NCBI GenBank assembly: GCA_022509025.1
Contig: JAFLUB010000010.1
Span: forward strand, 1 to 61,855
Length of the DNA: 61,855 bases
Source: Oscillospiraceae bacterium
GTDB lineage: Bacteria > Bacillota > Clostridia > UBA1381
Direction of reading: 5' to 3'
Shown: positions 42,958 through 59,479 of the stretch, in pieces
Position numbering within the stretch: position 1 is the stretch's first letter
Layout: the number at the start of each line of letters is the position of its first letter
Notes under the pieces: generated by a model
Databases searched by the model: none
The model's input: the letters and a program-made list of their open reading frames with translations, nothing else
What the model was told of the DNA's origin: nothing
Made by a program: the position numbers and the translations under genes

Positions 42958-42986
42958 TTGACAATATCATTTTATAGATATATAAT
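42958..42986 (+). promoter_or_regulatory. Antitoxin-RNA promoter, TA-like locus 1
   Basis: TTGACA (42958-42963), 17-nt spacer and TATAAT (42981-42986) form a consensus promoter with no protein-coding gene on this strand downstream; the transcript would run about 90 nt to the shared terminator. Confidence 0.8.
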
Positions 42987-42992
42987 ATAAAC

Positions 42993-43084
42993 AGAAAAAG
43001 GCAAGACCTCAAACGGTTAGCCGAGATATTTAGTTACAAAGTAACCGCAATCCGTTGGCTATTGGAGCGGTTACTTTGCTTTTA
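42993..43084 (+). ncRNA. Putative antisense (antitoxin) RNA, locus 1
   Basis: The predicted transcript starts near 42993, carries CGGTTAGCC (43014-43022) in a small hairpin, and ends at the stem CAAAGTAACCGC/GCGGTTACTTTG followed by CTTTT. Its 3' half is antisense to the end of the small peptide mRNA. GGUUAGCC occurs near the 5' part of both RNAs and is self-complementary with two G-U pairs, so the RNAs can also meet there. Confidence 0.6.
43037..43078. terminator. Shared bidirectional terminator, locus 1
   Basis: A 12-bp stem, arms 43037-43048 and 43067-43078, works for both convergent transcripts. The right arm contains the stop codon of the minus-strand peptide. Confidence 0.8.
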
Positions 43085-43154
43085 TAGCAAACGCTATTAA
43101 AATAATAATAACACAAAATGCTATTTTTAACACTTTTGAAATTATTTTTTTCAT
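43071..43154 (-). CDS. 27-residue hydrophobic peptide, type I toxin candidate (locus 1)
   Basis: An ATG at 43154 follows GGGAGGTGG with 9-nt spacing. The peptide begins MKKIISKVLKIAFCV, continues as an Ile/Leu-rich membrane helix and ends IKAK: positive ends around a single hydrophobic helix, the usual make-up of type I toxins. The leader is about 160 nt and contains GCCACC that can pair with the SD (GGTGGT), plus hairpin GAGTAT/ATACTC. The promoter is at 43323-43351. The first transcribed bases form TGTCGGA-ACAA-TCCGACA followed by TATTTTTT, a possible attenuator or 5' cap hairpin. The peptide does not match Fst, TxpA or BsrG patterns that I know. Confidence 0.6.
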   Translation of the reverse strand: MKKIISKVLKIAFCVIIILIAFAIKAK

Positions 43155-43322
43155 AGCAGACCACCTCCCTTTGAGTATTTCAGATTGACTGTTCGTCATA
43201 TACTCATAGGTGTAACTATGTACTGGTGGCTAACCGTCCGATTAAAAATCGTTTTCAGTCTTACCCTTTTACGCCTTGCTTAAGCAAGGGGAAAAAATAT
43301 GTCGGATTGTTCCGACAATGGT

Positions 43323-43351
43323 ATTGTATATCAGGATTTTTAGTATTTCAA
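43323..43351 (-). promoter_or_regulatory. Peptide promoter, TA-like locus 1
   Basis: On the minus strand TTGAAA (43346-43351) and TACAAT (43323-43328) are 17 nt apart, reading towards the peptide and towards the shared terminator. Confidence 0.75.
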
Positions 43352-43462: not shown

Positions 43463-45550
43463 TTATTCGTCGCCTTCGATAGCGTCCTTATGTGACAGTG
43501 AGATTTTGCCTGTCTTAGCGTCAACTTCCATGACTTTAACCTTGAGCCAATCGCCTTCCTTGACAACGTCCTCAACCTTTTCAACTCTGTGGTTTGCAAG
43601 CTTTGAGATGTGGCAGAGACCGTCCTTGCCCGGAAGAATTTCAACGAATGCTCCGAACGGCTGGATTGTCTTAACCAGACCGTTATATATCTCACCAACC
43701 TCAGGCTCCTTAACGATAGTCTCGATAGCGTCTCTTGCCGCTTTGCCTGATTCCTGGTCAACCGCGAAGATGTGGATTGTACCGTCATCCTCGATATCAA
43801 TCTTTGCGCCTGTTTCAGCGACAATCTTCTGGATAACCTTACCGCCCTGACCGATTACGTCACGAATCTTGTCAACGTCAATCTTCATTGTTTCAGCCTT
43901 AGGCGCATACGGTGAAAGCTCCTCACGCGGCGCAGGGATAGCCTTCAGGAGTATATCGTCTATGATATGATATCTCGCGTCTCTTGTCTTGCGGAGCGCT
44001 TCCTCAATAACGTCGTAGGGAAGACCGTCGTTCTTTATATCAACCTGAATAGATGTGATACCCTTCTTTGTTCCGGCAACCTTAAAGTCCATCTCGCCGT
44101 AGAAGTCCTCAAGACCCTGAATATCAACCATTGTCGTGAATCCGTCCTCGGTTGTTATAAGACCGCATGAGATACCGGCAACGGGAGCCTTAATCGGAAC
44201 GCCTGCCGCCATAAGTGAAAGAGTCGAACCGCAGACGCTGCCCTGTGATGTGGAACCGTTTGATGAAAGCACCTCTGATACCACTCTGATAGCGTAAGGG
44301 AAATCATCCTCTGACGGAAGCACAGGAACGAGTGAACGCTCCGCGAGAGCGCCGTGACCTATCTCACGTCTGCCCGGACCCCTTGAAGGTCTTGTTTCAC
44401 CAACTGAATATGACGGGAAGTTATAGTGATGGATATATCTCTTTTCCTCTTCCAAATCAATTCCGTCCAGTCTCTGATGCTCAGAGAGCGGAGCGAGAGT
44501 AGTGATAGAAAGCACCTGTGTCTGACCTCTTGTGAACATACCCGAACCGTGTGTTCTCGGCAGCAAATCAACCTCAGCGGCAAGCGGACGAATCTCGTCA
44601 AGACCTCTGCCGTCAACACGTCTGCCCTGAACTAACCATGCGCGAACGATTTCCTTCTGCATCTTGTAGAGGATTTCGCCTATCTGTTCATTGATATCGG
44701 GGTATTCTTCTTCAAGAGCCGGGATAAGCTCATCGGTTATAACGCCTATTCTCTCGTCACGGATATTCTTGTCGTCCGTGTCAAGCGCGTACTGTAATTT
44801 ATCAAATGCCATTTCCTTGATTTTATCATAAAGGTCATGGTCAACGTCATGTGATTCGTAAGTGAATTTCTCTTTACCAATTTCAGCCTGGATTCCGCTG
44901 ATGAAATCGCAGATTTCAATGATTGTCTTGTGCGCGAACTTGATACCCTCAAGCATAACGCTTTCCTCAACTTCGTTAGCGCCCGCCTCAATCATAACAA
45001 CCTTCTGCTTTGTTCCGGCAACGGTAACGAGCATTTCGCTCTTTTCTCTTTCTTCAACTGTCGGGTTGATAACATACTCGCCGTCTATAAGACCGAGCCA
45101 TACGCCGCCTATAGGACCGCTCCACGGCACGTCCGAAATTGAAATAGCGATTGACGTACCTATCATAGCCGCAACCTCGGGAGGGTTGTCCTGCTCAACT
45201 GAAAGTACCGTTGCAACAACCGATACATCGTTTCTCAGATCAGACGGGAAAAGAGGTCTTATCGGTCTGTCGATAACGCGGCTTGTGAGAATAGCCTTTT
45301 CAGACGGCTTACCCTCGCGCTTGATGTAACCGCCGGGGATTTTACCTACGGAATAAAGCTTTTCCTCATAGTCAACGCTCAATGGGAAGAAGTCTACGCC
45401 CTCTCTCGGTGTGCGTGATGCTGTTACGTTTACCATTACAACCGTGTCGCCGTAGCGGACAAGGCAGTGTCCGTTAGCAAGCTGAGCCATTTTGCCTGTC
45501 TCGACAATAAGCGGTCTGCCTGCAAGTGTTGTTTCGAATGTTTTAAACAT
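43463..45550 (-). CDS. pnp: Polyribonucleotide nucleotidyltransferase
   Basis: The 695-residue protein has two RNase PH domains (LVRYGDTVVMVNVTA; second core DFPYAIRVVSEVLSSNGSTSQGSVCG), then a KH domain (IRDVIGQGGKVIQKIVAETGA) and an S1 domain (VGEIYNGLVKTIQPFGAFVEI). It degrades RNA from the 3' end with phosphate. Start at 45550 (MFKTFETTLAGRP) follows AAGGAG with 9-nt spacing; the frame extends 64 codons upstream but that part is not family-like. It follows rpsO on the same strand, the usual rpsO-pnp order, but 324 nt of repeat-rich DNA and a terminator separate them. Confidence 0.96.
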   Translation of the reverse strand: MFKTFETTLAGRPLIVETGKMAQLANGHCLVRYGDTVVMVNVTASRTPREGVDFFPLSVDYEEKLYSVGKIPGGYIKREGKPSEKAILTSRVIDRPIRPLFPSDLRNDVSVVATVLSVEQDNPPEVAAMIGTSIAISISDVPWSGPIGGVWLGLIDGEYVINPTVEEREKSEMLVTVAGTKQKVVMIEAGANEVEESVMLEGIKFAHKTIIEICDFISGIQAEIGKEKFTYESHDVDHDLYDKIKEMAFDKLQYALDTDDKNIRDERIGVITDELIPALEEEYPDINEQIGEILYKMQKEIVRAWLVQGRRVDGRGLDEIRPLAAEVDLLPRTHGSGMFTRGQTQVLSITTLAPLSEHQRLDGIDLEEEKRYIHHYNFPSYSVGETRPSRGPGRREIGHGALAERSLVPVLPSEDDFPYAIRVVSEVLSSNGSTSQGSVCGSTLSLMAAGVPIKAPVAGISCGLITTEDGFTTMVDIQGLEDFYGEMDFKVAGTKKGITSIQVDIKNDGLPYDVIEEALRKTRDARYHIIDDILLKAIPAPREELSPYAPKAETMKIDVDKIRDVIGQGGKVIQKIVAETGAKIDIEDDGTIHIFAVDQESGKAARDAIETIVKEPEVGEIYNGLVKTIQPFGAFVEILPGKDGLCHISKLANHRVEKVEDVVKEGDWLKVKVMEVDAKTGKISLSHKDAIEGDE

Positions 45551-45831
45551 TTGTTTTTTCTCCTTTTTATTGTGTATTTGTGTTGTCAAGAGAACCGTCC
45601 CTATGACACCTGTCCCTATGACAATTCCTATGACAATCTTTTTGTTTTTGGAGATATGCTTTAGCAGATAAACACAAGGGACTGCCCAATTTAGCGCAGA
45701 GTACCCCTCTATGCCGTCGGGTGAGTTTTGTCCGTTCTGCATCTGAATTCAATCAGCCCGACGCAGCTATTGCTTAACACAACAGTCCCCTCTATTTATT
45801 TGCTAAACAAATATCTCCATAAATATATATA
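45551..45831. other. Gene-free repeat-rich spacer between rpsO and pnp
   Basis: The spacer contains tandem CTATGACA-type copies (CCGTCCCTATGACACCTGTCCCTATGACA) and an element bounded by GGGACTG (45678-45684) and CAGTCCC (45783-45789). That element's inner part (GCCCAATTTAGCGCAGA, TCAATCAGCCC) matches the 42881 element. A hydrophobic open frame on the minus strand continues in frame into pnp but has no start signal of its own. Confidence 0.5.
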
Positions 45832-53050: not shown

Positions 53051-53716
53051 ATGATTGAATATGATAAGGACGCTATAGTCCCTCCGTATATAACCGAATA
53101 CCTTCGCGCAAAAACTGTGCATACGGATGATTTTCTTCATGAGCTTGAAAAATATGCTGAAGAAAACAGTATCCCGGTTGTAGAGCCTGAAACGGCAAGG
53201 TTTTTGTCTGTAATGTGCAGAGCGGCAAAGCCTTTGAAAATTCTTGAGGTGGGATGCGCAATAGGCTATAGCGCCATAATTATGGCTAAAGCCGTTTCGG
53301 ACGAATGTGAAATCACTACGCTCGAATGTGATGAAAACATGGTCTGTATTGCAAGAGAGAATATAAAAAAAGCGGGATATGCCGAAAAAATATCGGTTAT
53401 CGAAGCTGACGCGAAGGACTATCTTTCATATATCGATGATGACGAGGTGTTTGATATTATATTCCTGGACGGACCTAAAGCGCACTATATCTATATGCTT
53501 GACGAGTGCGTGAGGCTTCTTAAAAAGGGCGGCATGATTATTTCTGATAATGTGCTATATAAGGGCATGACAGCCGATGATAATCATGTCGTAAGACGTA
53601 AAATCACGATTGTAAAGCGTCTCAGGCGGTATATTGATATGCTTATGGAGCATAAGGAGCTTGAAACCGCAATCCTGCCGCTTGGCGACGGTGTGACGGT
53701 TTCTGTGAAAAAATAA
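53051..53716 (+). CDS. trmR: tRNA 5-hydroxyuridine methyltransferase-type O-methyltransferase
   Basis: The 221-residue class I SAM-dependent methyltransferase of the catechol-OMT type has ILEVGCAIGYSAIIMA, ITTLECDENMV, and the metal-binding region DIIFLDGPKAHYIYM and GGMIISDNVLYKG. Its place 23 nt after mltG and before a U32 peptidase gene is that of B. subtilis yrrM, which methylates ho5U34 to mo5U34 in tRNA. The assignment to TrmR rests on this synteny and the normal length. Confidence 0.82.
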   Translation: MIEYDKDAIVPPYITEYLRAKTVHTDDFLHELEKYAEENSIPVVEPETARFLSVMCRAAKPLKILEVGCAIGYSAIIMAKAVSDECEITTLECDENMVCIARENIKKAGYAEKISVIEADAKDYLSYIDDDEVFDIIFLDGPKAHYIYMLDECVRLLKKGGMIISDNVLYKGMTADDNHVVRRKITIVKRLRRYIDMLMEHKELETAILPLGDGVTVSVKK

Positions 53717-53723
53717 AAAACAC

Positions 53724-53752
53724 TTGATTTTTTAAACAAAACTTGTTATAAT
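53724..53752 (+). promoter_or_regulatory. Antitoxin-RNA promoter, TA-like locus 2
   Basis: TTGATT (53724-53729), 17-nt spacer, TATAAT (53747-53752). The short transcript ends at the shared stem. Confidence 0.75.
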
Positions 53753-53758
53753 AAAAAC

Positions 53759-53855
53759 AGACACAGAGGTATGCCGTCAAACGGTTGCCTCAGTTGGTTT
53801 TAAGTAATCAATAAATAACCGTCACTGGGCAAGGAGCGACGGTTATTGTACTTTC
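53759..53855 (+). ncRNA. Putative antisense (antitoxin) RNA, locus 2
   Basis: The predicted RNA opens with a hairpin GAGG..GCCGT-CAA-ACGG..CCTC and ends in the stem AATAACCGTC/GACGGTTATT. CCGTCAAAC (53774-53782) is repeated directly at 53960-53968. Because the peptide mRNA is read from the other strand it carries GUUUGACGG, fully complementary to this RNA. This adds a second pairing site to the antisense overlap at the 3' ends. Confidence 0.6.
53814..53847. terminator. Shared bidirectional terminator, locus 2
   Basis: A 10-bp stem, arms 53814-53823 and 53838-53847. The right arm contains the stop codon of the minus-strand peptide, as in locus 1. The T-tracts are weak. Confidence 0.7.
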
Positions 53856-53914
53856 TGAGTAGTTATAATTAATATAACTATTATCATTGTAATAATTCTG
53901 ATAACTCGTTTCAT
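53843..53914 (-). CDS. 23-residue hydrophobic peptide, type I toxin candidate (locus 2)
   Basis: An ATG at 53914 lies 8 nt after GGAGG. The peptide begins MKRVIRIITMIIVILI and ends TTQKVQ, a basic start followed by one very hydrophobic stretch. The leader has hairpins CGCA-GATAC/GTAT-TGCG and CCTGCG/CGCAGG, and TCACC before the second hairpin can pair with GGTGA of the SD, closing it off. The promoter is at 53997-54025. Architecture, leader motif GGTTAGCC and position of the stop codon in the terminator are the same as locus 1 while the peptide sequence differs. Confidence 0.6.
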   Translation of the reverse strand: MKRVIRIITMIIVILIITTQKVQ

Positions 53915-53996
53915 ACAAGTCACCTCCTCGCCTGCGCGGTTTACGCAGGGTGAGGCTAACCGTCAAACTCGCAATACTTCTGTATCTGCGGGTTTG

Positions 53997-54025
53997 ATTT
54001 TATTACATTTTATGACAAAAAACAA
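53997..54025 (-). promoter_or_regulatory. Peptide promoter, TA-like locus 2
   Basis: On the minus strand TTGTTT (54020-54025) and TAAAAT (53997-54002) are 17 nt apart; weaker than the locus 1 promoter. Confidence 0.55.
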
Positions 54026-54069
54026 TAACAGGAATATTACATTTATTCTACAAATAAGGAACTAAAACC

Positions 54070-55293
54070 ATGAAAAAACCTGAACTTTTAGCTCCCGGCG
54101 GGAGTCTGGAAAAACTGAAAACGGCGATAGATTACGGCGCGGACGCGGTGTATATCGGCGGCGAGACGTTTTCTCTCCGTGTTGCGGCGGAAAACTTCTC
54201 GAAAGAGGATATGCTCGAGGGAATAAAATACGCTCATGACCGCGGCAAAAAGGTGTATCTTACAGCGAACATAATCCCGCATAACAGCGATATTGACGAA
54301 TTTGACGGCTTTGTCGATGAAATAAAGGATATGAACTTTGACGCTGTACTTATAGCTGATTTGGGACTTTTCGATATAATGCGCGAAAAAGCGCCGCATA
54401 TACCGATTCATGTAAGCACACAGGCGAATAACACAAACTACCGCTCAGCAATCGCATGGCATAAAATGGGTGCGACGCGTGTTGTGCTCGGACGTGAGAT
54501 GTCGTTTAAGGAAATAACTGAATTTCAAAAGAAGATTCCTGAGGATTTAGAGCTTGAAGCGTTTGTACACGGCGCGATGTGTATATCATATTCGGGACGA
54601 TGTCTGTTGTCAAATTACATGACGGGGCGCGACTCCAACATGGGCGCGTGCGCTCATCCGTGCCGGTGGAACTATAAGCTTGTGGAGGAAACACGTCCCG
54701 GAGAGTACATGGACGTGTTCGAAAACGAGCGCGGCACATTTATCTTTAACTCTAAGGACTTGTGTACAATCCGTCATATACCGGAGCTTGTGGGAAGCGG
54801 GATTGCGAGCCTTAAAATTGAGGGACGCGTCAAGACTTCCTATTATGTCGCGACGGTTGTGGGCGCGTATCGGCGCGAGATTGACAGATATTTTGCCGAC
54901 CCTGAGAATTATACGTTTAACGAGGCGGAATACGAGGAACTCTGCAAGGTGAGCCATAGACCGTATACAACCGGATTTTATTTCGGTAAGCCGGACGAAA
55001 ACGCGCAGGTGTATACGTCAAGCTCATATATCCGCGACTATGACCTTATCGGCATAGTCATGTCGTATGACGCAGAGATGGGCGAGGCAGTCGTTTCGCA
55101 GCGTAACCGCTTCTTTAAAGGCGATGAAGTTGAAATAATACAGCCGATGAAGCCGTTTTTCACGCAGACTGTTGACAGCCTGGCGGACGAAAAAGGACAG
55201 GAAATAGATGTCGCAAACCACGCGGAGCAGATAGTCAGGATAAAGACTGTAGAACCCGTGTGCGAGGGCGCGATGCTGAGAAAAAGACGGTAA
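54070..55293 (+). CDS. U32-family peptidase-like protein (TrhP/YrrO type)
   Basis: The 407-residue protein has the U32 signature EAFVHGAMCISYSGRCLLS followed by further conserved cysteines in GACAHPCRW, a TIM-barrel start PELLAPGGSLEKLKTAIDYGADAVYIGG and a C-terminal beta domain. In Bacillota the gene after mltG-trmR is a U32 protein (yrrN/yrrO, TrhP) needed for prephenate-dependent hydroxylation of U34 in tRNA, the step before TrmR. I infer that role here. Only one U32 gene is present rather than two, and TA-like locus 2 separates it from trmR. Confidence 0.85.
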   Translation: MKKPELLAPGGSLEKLKTAIDYGADAVYIGGETFSLRVAAENFSKEDMLEGIKYAHDRGKKVYLTANIIPHNSDIDEFDGFVDEIKDMNFDAVLIADLGLFDIMREKAPHIPIHVSTQANNTNYRSAIAWHKMGATRVVLGREMSFKEITEFQKKIPEDLELEAFVHGAMCISYSGRCLLSNYMTGRDSNMGACAHPCRWNYKLVEETRPGEYMDVFENERGTFIFNSKDLCTIRHIPELVGSGIASLKIEGRVKTSYYVATVVGAYRREIDRYFADPENYTFNEAEYEELCKVSHRPYTTGFYFGKPDENAQVYTSSSYIRDYDLIGIVMSYDAEMGEAVVSQRNRFFKGDEVEIIQPMKPFFTQTVDSLADEKGQEIDVANHAEQIVRIKTVEPVCEGAMLRKRR

Positions 55294-55441: not shown

Positions 55442-55489
55442 AATATTAACTTTATTGTGGGTAATTTTATCAGAAAAGGAGAGAAAATT

Positions 55490-58400
55490 ATGAACAAACA
55501 TTTAAAGAAGCTGCTTTGCGCATCGCTTTCACTTGCGATGGTAGCGGGCAGCATCGTACTTCCGACAGCTGCAAGCGCGGCGGAATGGTCGGCAGACGCG
55601 ACCTCGTGGAAATTCGACTTTGGTTCGGCAGAAAATGTTGCAGACGGTTACATAGCTGTTCCGGCCGACACGAAGTACACGGTGGCAGGAGGCTATGGCT
55701 TCCTTGGTCTTGAAAACGGCTATGCTACAAACTGGCTTGCAGACGGATTTGAAATGACGCAGGGCTATGACCTTGTGCTTGCAAACGGCGGTTCCGAATC
55801 GCCTGCGACAGCGGACGATGACTGGGTTGCGACAACCACAAGAACGGAAGCGGATCAGGACTATGTAAGTCCTATACGTTTCGCTATGACCGCAGAGAAA
55901 AACGGCTATTATAAGGTAAGGATTAACTTGAAGAAAGCAAATGCAGAAGAGGATGCGTATGTAAATCTGTTTACAGAGCGCCGTCATCAGCATTTATTGA
56001 ACAAGGCTATTCCTGATGAGGGTCTGGTTTACGAGGCTTCGATTCATGTACATAATTTGCAGGGAAAGAGCAACGGAGGTCATCCTGGAGACAACGCGGA
56101 TACTATGTTAAACATTGTTGCCGAGGGTAAAAATGTTGCGATTTCCTCAATAGAGGTTACCAAGACGGCGGCAGACAAGACATTGTTTATTCTAACAGAC
56201 TCGACAGGCTGTGAGCAGAGCGCGGCAATTCCGTACTTCCCGCTTGACCACTGTCAGGGTGTAGGCTCGGCGCTTGCAAAGTATCTCAGCAAAGACTGGG
56301 CTCTTGTAAACGAAGGCGAATCAGGTCTTGACAGCACCTCTTCAGGCCCCCACTTCAATAACTGCGTCAATGAAATAAAAGCAGGAGACTTTTTATGGTA
56401 TGAGTTCGGACATAATGACACAAGATCACAAGGTGTTACAGGCTACCTCAATACTCTTCAAAGCTATTATAATACTGTATCATCTAAAAACGCGTATCTT
56501 ATAGTTGCTGCACCTATTGAGCGTAAGCAGTCGTTCCAGTACCAAACCGACAACACATGGACCAAAACACTTGAGGAGTATGCGACAGCAGGCAAGAACT
56601 TTGTTGAGGAGCAGATTGCAGCGGGCAAGAAAAACATTGCATTTATTGATTTGAACGACCTGTCAATCGGAGTTCTTAACAGCATATCTCAGGAAATCAA
56701 TGAGAAATATGATTACGGATGGCTTTCGGGTAACTTCTATTATTTCCTGAACGACTACACACATCCGAACGATTACGGTGCAGACCAGTTTGCTAAGGCT
56801 GCGGTAGACGGCGCGAAAGCGACTATCGCCGCGGCAGCAGAAGCAGATGCGACTGCTTCTGTTAAGACGCAGGCAGAGGTTCTTTCGATGATTTTTGGGG
56901 ACACCAGAGCTGAGGAGGCTAACCGCGTACCCGAGTCAATTTATAAATTGGGCACAGTTCCCAACAGCGCATATCCGAAAGGACTTACAAAGGTTGTATA
57001 TTATGACTATCCGTGGCTCCTTAAAAAGGTAGAGTGGAATGAGGACGGAACCGCGAAGTCAATCGCGGCGGAGCCGGTTGACTGTGCTGATGAAACAATC
57101 CCATTCTCATACAGCCGCGGCAGAATTGATATATTTGATAAAGATGGAGAGAAGAAGGGTGCGGTAACAACTGATGAATTCTATGACAGATTATCCGCGT
57201 CCGGCGCTCTTACATTTAGTGATACCAGTGTTACATACGATGCTGATGCCGGTGATACATATAACGCGTACATGGTTGACGCTGACACACCGTCGACAGG
57301 CAAAATCGTGTCGAATACGCTTACGGAAAAAGATAATATAGATGTTAAAGAATATCTGTTACAGGGTAAACTTGGAACTGAGAATGTTGAGAATTTCGCA
57401 TCATACAGTGATGATTTGGCTGTAGGCGCGACCATTATAGGTACTAACAACTGGGAAGCTCCCGGCGGTGGCGAGTTCTCGTTAGGAAAGGAAGACGAAA
57501 CCTATTATGCTCATTATAAGTCAACAGGTTCAAGCACCTTCTATCCCGAAACTCCGTTCTATGGCAAAACAAAGGTATCATCAGGTCAGCTTCTTTGCAG
57601 ATTTGATATAAGATACATAGGCGGTACAGTAAGAATGTATTATACAGACGGCACGGCTCTTAACAACTGGCCGGCGACTGTTGCTCCTCTTACTATTGAT
57701 ACTACGGACGGCAATGTTACAGTTAAGCTGAACGGCGCTGAGGTAAATAAAATCAATGCCAACACATGGACTACGGTTCAGCTCGTAGTTGATTTGGACT
57801 ACGGAAAAGCAACAGCATCCGTAAACGGTAAATCCCTTGAAACCGATATAACAGGTTTACAGGGATTCGGCGCTCCCAAGCCCGCATCGCTTGGTATGCT
57901 TGCGTTCCACAGCCCGAACAATTCATCTGATGAGTTTGACATCACGAATATAACTATTGCGACTCTTAACACGGCTCCGCTTCCGGAGAAAACTGTTAAG
58001 GTAAAAGCAAATGACGCATCTATGGGTACAGTATCTGTTGGAGATGAAGATGATACAGAGCTGTCTGTTGCAAAGAATCAGGATGTAACAATCCACGCTG
58101 TTCCGGCTGACGGATATGAACTTTCAAGCTGGACAGATGCAGCCGGAAAAGAGTTTGCATTTGCTACTGACTACACATTCAGACTTTATGACGATATAGA
58201 GCTTACAGCAAACTTTAAAGCGAAGGAGAAGGACAAATACAATTATCTGTATCATGAAACCTTCAGAACTCTCACAACCGATACTCTTGCTGCCGATGGC
58301 TGGAAATCACCGAATCAGCAGGATGTACTGACCATAGAAACAGATAGTAATCCCGCACTGGAAAATTACCTGAGATTTGGTAAGAACGGCTCTACAAGAG

Positions 58401-59479
58401 GCGCGGAGAAAAAATTTAATGAAACGCCGTTTACACATGAGAGTGGTTTGGCATTCGGTATAAGCGCTAAGTTTAATAAGCCGAGCGGAGACCCGAATGA
58501 AATATCTATTCACAGCGGAAACCTTACATATGATAATGTAAACTGGGGAAGCACAGGCGGCCAGGTTATTCAGCTGAAGCAAGCAAATACCGGTGTAATA
58601 AGCTTGAACGGTACGGAAACAAAAATCCCTGACAATACATGGTTTAATGTTATTGCGCTGTGCGATTTTGATACTCACACAGCCAAAGTGCAGGTAACAT
58701 CTCTTGACGGTTCAACGGAATATTTCAATGACACAGTTGAAATGCCTGATAAAGCCGCAACCGGTATTAAGGGAATATATTTCGTATTCGGTAAAAACAG
58801 CGGCGGTGTTGTAAGCATGGACAATATCGAAATATTCCCGGCTGAAGAGTATGTAGAGCCTGCAGTTACTCACACAGTAACATTCACAGGCGCGAATGCG
58901 ACTGTAAAGGTAGACGGTGAGGCAGTCACAGAGCCTGTAACTGTTACAGAGGGTGACGATTTAAGCTTCACGGTAACTCCTGATGACGGCTATGAGTTAG
59001 TATCGGTTAAGGTGGGAAGCGACACACTTACCCCTGACGATGACGGCGTTTACACAATTACCGTAACAGCCAACACGACCGTTACAATCACGGTGAAAGC
59101 TGTAGAAGTTCCTTCGCCTTCACCGTCTCCTTCGCCTTCACCTTCACCATCTCCCGAGGTTTCGAACATTACTGTTGTTTCAGAGCCTGAGATAAAGACC
59201 GACGATGAAGGCAACAAGGAGATTGCCGTAACGGTTAAAAACGAAGGTGACGAGGCTTCGCCGATAGTTCTGATGATAGCGCGCTATGATGAAGAAACCG
59301 GCAGATTTATCGGACTTGTATTATCAAGCACGCAGAGTATAGACGCAAACGGCGAAATAGAGCTGACAGCGCCTGTTCCTGCAGAGAATGATTACAAGGC
59401 TATGCTTTGGAACGGCGTAAGCGGACTATATCCGATTATGGACGCTGTAACCAAAGATGAGTTGGAAGACAACGAATAA
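55490..59479 (+). CDS. Large secreted CE12-like rhamnogalacturonan acetylesterase with accessory domains
   Basis: The 1329-residue protein has a signal peptide (about 1-30, ending AASAAEW), an N-terminal beta domain, and an SGNH esterase domain (about 228-445). The nucleophile Ser is in FILTDSTGCE (near residue 237), Gly in NEGESGLDS, Asn in GHNDTRS, and the Asp/His pair in NDYTHPND (near 420). This matches CE12-type rhamnogalacturonan acetylesterases. After it come a LamG-like domain (about 640-825), an InlB-type repeat domain (about 833-905), a second LamG-like domain, a short Ig-like domain, a Ser/Pro repeat linker (about 1207-1223) and the C-terminal domain shared with the PL11 lyase. It should remove acetyl groups from RG-I so that lyases can act. 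SD AAAGGAGAG. Confidence 0.8.
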   Translation: MNKHLKKLLCASLSLAMVAGSIVLPTAASAAEWSADATSWKFDFGSAENVADGYIAVPADTKYTVAGGYGFLGLENGYATNWLADGFEMTQGYDLVLANGGSESPATADDDWVATTTRTEADQDYVSPIRFAMTAEKNGYYKVRINLKKANAEEDAYVNLFTERRHQHLLNKAIPDEGLVYEASIHVHNLQGKSNGGHPGDNADTMLNIVAEGKNVAISSIEVTKTAADKTLFILTDSTGCEQSAAIPYFPLDHCQGVGSALAKYLSKDWALVNEGESGLDSTSSGPHFNNCVNEIKAGDFLWYEFGHNDTRSQGVTGYLNTLQSYYNTVSSKNAYLIVAAPIERKQSFQYQTDNTWTKTLEEYATAGKNFVEEQIAAGKKNIAFIDLNDLSIGVLNSISQEINEKYDYGWLSGNFYYFLNDYTHPNDYGADQFAKAAVDGAKATIAAAAEADATASVKTQAEVLSMIFGDTRAEEANRVPESIYKLGTVPNSAYPKGLTKVVYYDYPWLLKKVEWNEDGTAKSIAAEPVDCADETIPFSYSRGRIDIFDKDGEKKGAVTTDEFYDRLSASGALTFSDTSVTYDADAGDTYNAYMVDADTPSTGKIVSNTLTEKDNIDVKEYLLQGKLGTENVENFASYSDDLAVGATIIGTNNWEAPGGGEFSLGKEDETYYAHYKSTGSSTFYPETPFYGKTKVSSGQLLCRFDIRYIGGTVRMYYTDGTALNNWPATVAPLTIDTTDGNVTVKLNGAEVNKINANTWTTVQLVVDLDYGKATASVNGKSLETDITGLQGFGAPKPASLGMLAFHSPNNSSDEFDITNITIATLNTAPLPEKTVKVKANDASMGTVSVGDEDDTELSVAKNQDVTIHAVPADGYELSSWTDAAGKEFAFATDYTFRLYDDIELTANFKAKEKDKYNYLYHETFRTLTTDTLAADGWKSPNQQDVLTIETDSNPALENYLRFGKNGSTRGAEKKFNETPFTHESGLAFGISAKFNKPSGDPNEISIHSGNLTYDNVNWGSTGGQVIQLKQANTGVISLNGTETKIPDNTWFNVIALCDFDTHTAKVQVTSLDGSTEYFNDTVEMPDKAATGIKGIYFVFGKNSGGVVSMDNIEIFPAEEYVEPAVTHTVTFTGANATVKVDGEAVTEPVTVTEGDDLSFTVTPDDGYELVSVKVGSDTLTPDDDGVYTITVTANTTVTITVKAVEVPSPSPSPSPSPSPSPEVSNITVVSEPEIKTDDEGNKEIAVTVKNEGDEASPIVLMIARYDEETGRFIGLVLSSTQSIDANGEIELTAPVPAENDYKAMLWNGVSGLYPIMDAVTKDELEDNE

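Follow-up and report, generated by a model that had tools for sequence, protein, structure and literature searches.

Convergent membrane-peptide and antisense-RNA genes in Clostridia: a probable, as yet unnamed family of type I toxin–antitoxin modules

What lies in the 353 nt that separate an O-methyltransferase gene (53051–53716) from a U32/TrhP-like gene (54070–55293) of an Oscillospiraceae bacterium? The gap, with mltG upstream, lies in a window of 61,855 nucleotides (the whole stretch of DNA that was analysed) and holds an element, locus 2 (53717–54069), which a first-pass annotation made from the letters alone had described as the second of two loci with the same architecture. The product of the first gene matches the Pfam model Methyltransf_3, that of an O-methyltransferase; no model match confirmed the name trmR given to it in that annotation, and the TrhP label of the second gene comes from a sub-cut-off NCBIfam match. 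The two products may perhaps catalyse two steps of one tRNA wobble modification. Locus 2 separates the two genes (window 53051–55293) and may uncouple their transcription.

Locus 2 is laid out as a convergent pair, a minus-strand peptide mRNA and a plus-strand antisense RNA, with the following predicted features.

53724–53752, plus strand: promoter of the antisense RNA, TTGATT-17-TATAAT, 10/12, extended TG (promoter scan; -10 region conserved in orthologues)
53759–53852, plus strand: predicted antisense (antitoxin-like) RNA with 5′ hairpin, linker and terminator hairpin, start and end putative (fold z -3.9)
53766–53791, plus strand: 5′ hairpin of the antisense RNA, GAGGUAUGCCGUCAAACGGUUGCCUC, 26 nt (folding, orthologue alignment)
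53774–53782, plus strand: CCGTCAAAC, first copy of a repeat (exact-match search)
53814–53847, read from both sides: shared terminator hairpin, its stem including the stop codon (terminator scan; covariation across copies)
53843–53914, minus strand: ORF MKRVIRIITMIIVILIITTQKVQ, 23 codons and the stop TAA at 53845–53843 (ORF list; open in nine orthologues)
53923–53927, minus strand: Shine–Dalgarno (SD) sequence GGAGG, 8 nt before the ATG and largely paired with a CCUC-containing stretch upstream (sequence and folding)
53952–53968, minus strand: mRNA leader GUUUGACGGUUAGCCUC, with the second repeat copy, the GGUUAGCC motif and the anti-SD CCUC (sequence, orthologue comparison)
53971–53989, minus strand: 5′-end hairpin of the peptide mRNA, GCAGAUACAGAAGUAUUGC (orthologue comparison, folding)
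53997–54025, minus strand: promoter of the peptide mRNA, TTGTTT-17-TAAAAT, weak (sequence; -10 invariant in orthologues)

Much of this layout had been noticed at first pass, and the two promoters, the shared terminator containing the stop codon and the GGAGG ahead of a 23-residue hydrophobic ORF were all recovered. The minus-strand promoter (54025–53997) matches at 8/12 and is absent from the scan list; its TAAAAT box is invariant in the orthologues, three of which (L048, L054 and L061) have TTGACA 17 nt upstream of it. The TAA of the ORF (coding 53914–53846) falls inside the terminator stem, and the predicted antisense RNA, about 95 nt long, reads into this terminator, which is common to both RNAs. 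Chance hairpins are ruled out at locus 2 by the fold z-scores against shuffles (-3.9 for the antisense RNA and -7.4 for most of the mRNA), by DNA relatives in the genus and by conservation among orthologues.

A 9-bp direct repeat had also been reported, and was said to make the 5′ regions of the two RNAs complementary. The repeat is present, with CCGTCAAAC at 53774 and 53960 and no other exact copy in the window, and the 5′ regions are indeed complementary, but the pairing (GAGGUAUGCCGUCAAAC against GUUUGACGGUUAGCCUC) runs to about 17 nt, two positions being mismatched, rather than to 9. The repeat is not, however, strictly conserved: its pairing is perfect Watson–Crick in two of the nine orthologues, extends to nine pairs in six of nine when G–U is allowed, and reaches 8/9 in L048 and L184 and 7/9 in L061.

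Locus 1 (42958–43351) follows the same plan between hisIE and pnp.

42958–42986, plus strand: antisense promoter, perfect TTGACA-17-TATAAT (promoter scan)
42992–43080, plus strand: predicted antisense RNA (match to covariance model R1, introduced below, E 1.3e-14; the sequence is in the R1 training set)
43071–43154, minus strand: ORF MKKIISKVLKIAFCVIIILIAFAIKAK with its stop in the terminator (ORF and terminator analysis)
43301–43316, minus strand: 5′-end hairpin of the mRNA, GTCGGAACAATCCGAC (sequence, folding)
43323–43351, minus strand: mRNA promoter, TTGAAA-17-TACAAT (promoter scan)

The leader motif that had been claimed for both loci, CGGTTAGCC, is found at 53954 (minus), 43228 (minus) and 43014 (plus), and its four matches in the window compare with 0.31 expected; the fourth, at 56917, lies inside a long ORF (55457–59479). 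An exact search of the window found no CCGTCAAAC repeat in locus 1. The two loci had been presented as independent instances of one plan, and the common plan and the diverged peptides stand, but the loci proved to be homologous and not independent. The genes adjoining locus 1 are hisIE and pnp (window 43463–45742), the latter encoding polynucleotide phosphorylase, an RNA decay enzyme.

A DNA search with locus 1 gave many partial matches, several of them limited to the antisense 5′ hairpin and the -10 box at 97.5% identity. The structure-aware search for further copies that had been proposed was carried out with a covariance model, R1, built from 26 antisense sequences (alignment A2), and found many across Clostridia; at locus 2 it matches 53760–53852 with an E of 7.5e-10, this sequence too being in its training set. 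In A2 the terminator has 97.7% of its cells paired and seven of its ten pairs changed on both sides, and for the whole two-hairpin structure 0/500 shuffles reached the observed covariation score, a score that relatedness can inflate and to which any terminator would be expected to contribute covariation. The 5′ hairpin is only 83% paired in A2 because two sub-types sit in another register.

R1 matches occur in 15 of 16 genomes of the genus at E≤1e-3, the best per genome being 5.6e-7 or lower in all 15, and most of these genomes had supplied training sequences. They occur in at least 52/95 genomes of the order (E≤1e-4), at least 40/291 of the class (E≤1e-6) and at least 2/398 of a phylum sample (E≤1e-7), one of these two being the window's own genome; the shares are minimum values that allow no strict comparison, since some genomes are in more than one sample and fewer candidates per genome were scored in the larger searches. 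The window's own genome has two clear copies, loci 1 and 2, plus one weak match, and as many as 12 matches occur in a single genome (G017). R1 is far more sensitive than the peptide as a protein query, which in the genus gave matches at E≤10 in 3/16 genomes, its own included. Relatives of the convergent peptide/antisense unit, as recognised by these searches, occur in many gut Clostridia and in some phages.

A set of copies was assembled from 105 R1 matches in 86 loci, less eight rows (six duplicates and two weak extras), plus the 26 training loci, and comprises 122 distinct entries, still counting the pair L174/L054 from the same genome. A hydrophobic ORF of 16–45 aa with its stop at the terminator is present in 94 of the 122, at one fixed position in 78 of these, and 28 copies have no recognisable ORF. 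Shuffling the upstream DNA left a mean of 2.5 and a maximum of 5 ORF-bearing copies, and copies that combine such an ORF with an SD of 4 nt or more number 75, as against a mean of 0.25 after shuffling. That the plan and not chance is conserved, as had been argued at first pass from two loci, is thus borne out across the copies, as is the pairing in the terminator, which covaries; the exact 9-bp repeat is the part that did not hold, occurring in 2/9 orthologues.

Most of the peptides are 21–27 aa long, with Lys or Arg within the last four residues in 91/94, and their stop codons are TAA (68), TAG (23) and TGA (3). The main types are MDNEYIISFMIILLLLVISIKK, MEYVYIMIYIITLIVLIITIKK, xxKYIxRI..KVR/KVK, the locus-1 type and the locus-2 type. 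Coding constraint is clear in two of these groups, with pN/pS of 0.28 for the MDNEYIISFMIILLLLVISIKK type (13 sequences) and 0.13 for the MEYVYIMIYIITLIVLIITIKK type (10 sequences) against 0.76–2.24 in other frames, and weak in three: the locus-2 type (0.45, seven sequences; other frames 0.73 and 0.71), the KYI type (0.57; other frames 0.45 and 1.14) and the locus-1 type (0.56, four sequences; other frames 0.59 and 0.71). The KYI and locus-1 types are unconvincing as coding when taken alone, because their values are near or above those of other frames. Among lysine codons AAA makes up 128/140 in the last five codons and 60/80 in the first six, which fits the terminal lysine codons doubling as the U-tract of the antisense terminator, although an AT-rich codon bias may play a part. 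More distant is the type seen in L239 (MLDVFTLFFMLALALSINIACWIIIYYITKK) and, as a near copy, in L240, which has the same chassis but a longer peptide.

The position of locus 2 within the mltG–methyltransferase–U32 cluster, noted at first pass, is confirmed by the gene models and recurs in other genomes. Three near full-length relatives, from three other species, came out of a DNA search of the genus at 72–77% identity, and the same two genes flank these and the copies in L054, L061, L180, L184 and L185. L174 and L054 being one genome, the element has this site in nine distinct genomes, the window's included, and these span at least three genera (g1, g4 and g8). The ORF, whose interruption in related strains with the RNA structure kept had been named in advance as a refuting result, is open in the nine orthologues. 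The parts that vary least are the leader GACGGTTAGCC, the TAAAAT box, the terminator carrying the stop codon, and the antisense hairpin together with its -10 region. The site is not always occupied. Among 21 U32 loci the methyltransferase gene is upstream on the same strand in 11 and elsewhere or out of reach in the other ten; five of the 11 have the element, five (L049, L050, L062, L065 and L067) a spacer of 17–29 nt, and L051, with a gap of 1518 nt, was counted in neither class. A second survey, which overlaps the first in part, started from 67 family genomes with a U32 match, and in the 30 with fetched loci the methyltransferase gene is directly upstream in 14, six with the element (L219 being scored as occupied on the basis of L184) and eight with a gap of 20–100 nt.

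RNA features were compared in 83 copies, that is, the 96 entries with the leader motif less ten doubtful ones set aside by hand and three without an ORF. The antisense promoter is a perfect 12/12 (TTGACA/TATAAT) in 71 of them, with a mean of 11.7 against 8.0 for shuffled DNA, and the mRNA promoter has a mean of 10.3 in 80 copies against 8.2. In the canonical type the mRNA leader and the antisense 5′ hairpin carry the same arms (GGyAAGAC ... GGUUAUGCC), and the two can therefore pair in trans, with a predicted mean of -19.8 kcal/mol versus -15.0 for shuffled hairpins and a better value than these in 82/83. This pairing was rejected as a source of locus specificity, since cognate and non-cognate energies are equal (-19.8 and -19.9 kcal/mol; -21.5 and -21.5 among orthologues), and the leader of locus 1 is even predicted to pair better with the antisense hairpin of locus 2 (-20.0 kcal/mol) than with its own (-15.6). 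Because the leaders do not discriminate, the terminator is the predicted source of specificity: with terminators included, the cofold gain of loci 1 and 2 is -53.5 and -54.1 kcal/mol with their own antisense RNAs and -3.6 and -3.4 when crossed, figures that state a prediction and not a test, as the complementarity is given by the overlap.

The leader may also act on the mRNA that carries it. Where the SD is 4 nt or longer (69 entries), its mean probability of pairing with the stretch that directly follows the leader motif is 0.56 versus 0.12 in controls, and the SD is more paired than the control in 58/69, though paired above 0.8 in only 10/69. Its pairing is 0.99 at locus 2 and 0.26–0.79 in the orthologues; at locus 1 it is 0.65, but the partner there is not the stretch after the leader motif (0.001). 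When the leader of locus 2 is occupied in the model, part of the SD is freed, the opposite of simple repression, and it is possible that antisense repression would work by blocking at the stop codon or by duplex cleavage.

From these features we would propose that the minus-strand RNA is the mRNA of a short membrane peptide, presumably toxic when made, which would be silenced in two ways. The mRNA's own leader would tend to hide the SD, as sequence and folding suggest, and a short antisense RNA from the stronger promoter would bind the mRNA at both ends. At one end the terminators of the two RNAs, predicted to be fully complementary, would cover the stop codon and should confer locus specificity; at the other, the 5′ hairpins have common arms, such that the 5′ arm of each RNA could pair with the 3′ arm of the other. 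Should the antisense RNA be the less stable of the two, translation would be released once the locus or its transcription was lost.

Copies are also present in viral contigs. A pattern search found the exact canonical hairpin in five of them and one further hairpin pattern at four matches, while the pattern of the locus-2 antisense hairpin had no match in viral contigs. In L205 and L203 (viral) a complete copy with its own peptide sits between the tape-measure gene and the gene that follows it, for which the PHROG matches are to endolysin or to entries of unknown function; in L203 a tail-protein gene comes after that. A DNA search with one viral-contig copy gave one 45-nt match in phages and none in plasmids; tblastn of two peptides against phages and of one against plasmids gave no useful match, weak evidence given the low-complexity filter and short queries.

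Several variants depart from the basic plan. In 13 of 19 copies without an SD an overlapping out-of-frame ORF that has one begins 16–28 nt upstream, usually with KSKH or a similar stretch close to its start; members of this branch are L043, L073, L080, L084, L125, L156, L157, L162, L168, L175, L181 and L199. Elsewhere antisense copies are close-set, with ORF-less extras beside an ORF-bearing one (L138:1235-1485, L166:731-951 and L173:420-810), and at G240:C1:2362171-2363733 five R1 matches stand in a row, about 330–400 nt apart. Six loci (L069, L076, L077, L079, L085 and L086) keep the antisense gene and terminator with the upstream peptide-gene part apparently replaced or missing, which suggests orphan antitoxin-like RNAs or decayed copies.

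What, then, is the unit for? Loci 1 and 2 are probably members of a single family, so far unnamed, of type I toxin–antitoxin modules in Clostridia, some chromosomal and others phage-borne. The same RNA mechanism could instead control a membrane peptide that serves regulation or signalling, and a stable site between two genes in at least three genera, together with multiple copies and distinct peptide types, two under clear constraint, would accord with this; we consider it unlikely, as the copies on viral contigs, the strong antisense promoter, the tendency to a masked SD and the tandem antisense extras suit a toxin better. The plus-strand promoter of locus 2 is directed at the U32 gene and the plus-strand U-tract is poor, so that read-through could drive that gene and the element could be a cis-regulatory insert of promoter plus attenuator with an incidental peptide, but its homologues stand in other contexts (locus 1 at hisIE–pnp, others in phage tail clusters) and the ORF is open in all nine orthologues, which makes such an insert highly improbable. 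Least probable of these readings is a non-functional mobile palindrome (REP/MITE-like) spreading by copying. The high copy number in some genomes, the close-set copies and the ORF-less copies speak for it; the covariation, the constraint on coding seen in two peptide groups and the site shared by nine genomes speak against it.

With the type I reading preferred, we lean, less firmly, towards a wider superfamily found mainly in Clostridia, in which one RNA chassis (twin self-complementary 5′ hairpins and a stop-codon terminator) would serve several unrelated membrane peptides, with lysine codons used as a U-tract, one mok-like branch and tandem antisense copies as spare antitoxins. If this is true, a sizeable share of the sampled Clostridia genomes hold unannotated RNA-controlled membrane-peptide loci, often in several copies. 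With the leader hairpin shared and the terminators locus-specific, cross-talk of antitoxins between paralogous type I modules can be put to a direct test.

Representative peptides, five to nine per library, gave nothing over cut-off in Pfam, NCBIfam or PADLOC (best sub-cut-off values 0.066 in Pfam and 0.034 in NCBIfam) and no PHROG at E below 0.2; ordinary annotation would miss such peptides, most being 21–27 aa and those searched matching no library model. Rfam gave no gathering-score match in the window and four matches in six other loci, all below the gathering score, the best loose one, mir-232 (E 2.6e-4), lying outside the element and STnc240 (E 0.079) overlapping the L185 terminator. One earlier study is said to have described novel type I families. 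A literature search of listings and available text found no description of this one; thousands of structured RNA candidates are reported in the available text of PMC8040213 and may include it.

The general traits of type I modules, a hydrophobic peptide with a charged C terminus and a complementary antisense gene with a stronger promoter, can be read from the sequence of these loci. In hok/mok-sok the peptide is coupled to the overlapping mok frame and the antisense RNA meets the mRNA at its leader; a subset of the Clostridia copies likewise starts the peptide inside an overlapping out-of-frame ORF with its own SD, whereas here the antisense RNA would meet the mRNA at the 3′ end and not the leader. 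The Firmicute modules txpA-RatA and bsrG-SR4 have a 3′ overlap, as these loci do, and longer peptides; six of the peptides here had no match over cut-off among Pfam or NCBIfam models. Experimental type I modules of clostridia come mainly from C. difficile, with predictions in others, according to the available part of a review (PMC6563280). The modules CD2517.1-RCd8, CD2907.1-RCd9, CD0956.2-RCd10 and CD0977.1-RCd11 are, in the available descriptions (PMC6563280, PMC7699646), alike in belonging to Clostridia, in their convergent toxin and antisense genes, several in prophage, and in a hydrophobic peptide with a basic tail; a difference, on these descriptions, is that the named peptides are 34–53 aa long.

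With par of pAD1 (Fst/RNA I-RNA II; Fst/Ldr family), as far as the available text of PMC7472228 describes it, the likeness extends to convergent RNAs at one bidirectional terminator, a second complementary region, a 5′-end helix, an SD masked by a leader stem and a small membrane peptide. The convergent promoters and shared terminator are recognisable in the Clostridia loci by sequence, and SD sequestration by folding, with the reservation given above that few SDs are strongly paired. The second region differs: the par direct repeats DRa and DRb cover the SD and start site, whereas here both RNAs have a common hairpin, self-complementary and situated upstream of the SD, and the single 9-bp repeat, also upstream, is exact in 2/9 orthologues and has no counterpart in locus 1. 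The placing of the stop codon within the terminator stem may be a further difference. Membership of the Fst toxins was rejected, as the [PDST]xxxG motif occurs in 0/94 peptides and none of six scanned peptides matched PF13955 (Fst_toxin) in Pfam; that model also exceeded its cut-off in 0/16 genus genomes and likewise in 0/14 control genomes, a search with no positive control. Since the architecture matches and the peptides do not carry the Fst motif, we class these loci as a new type I family, par/Fst-like in its predicted working but not a member of that group.
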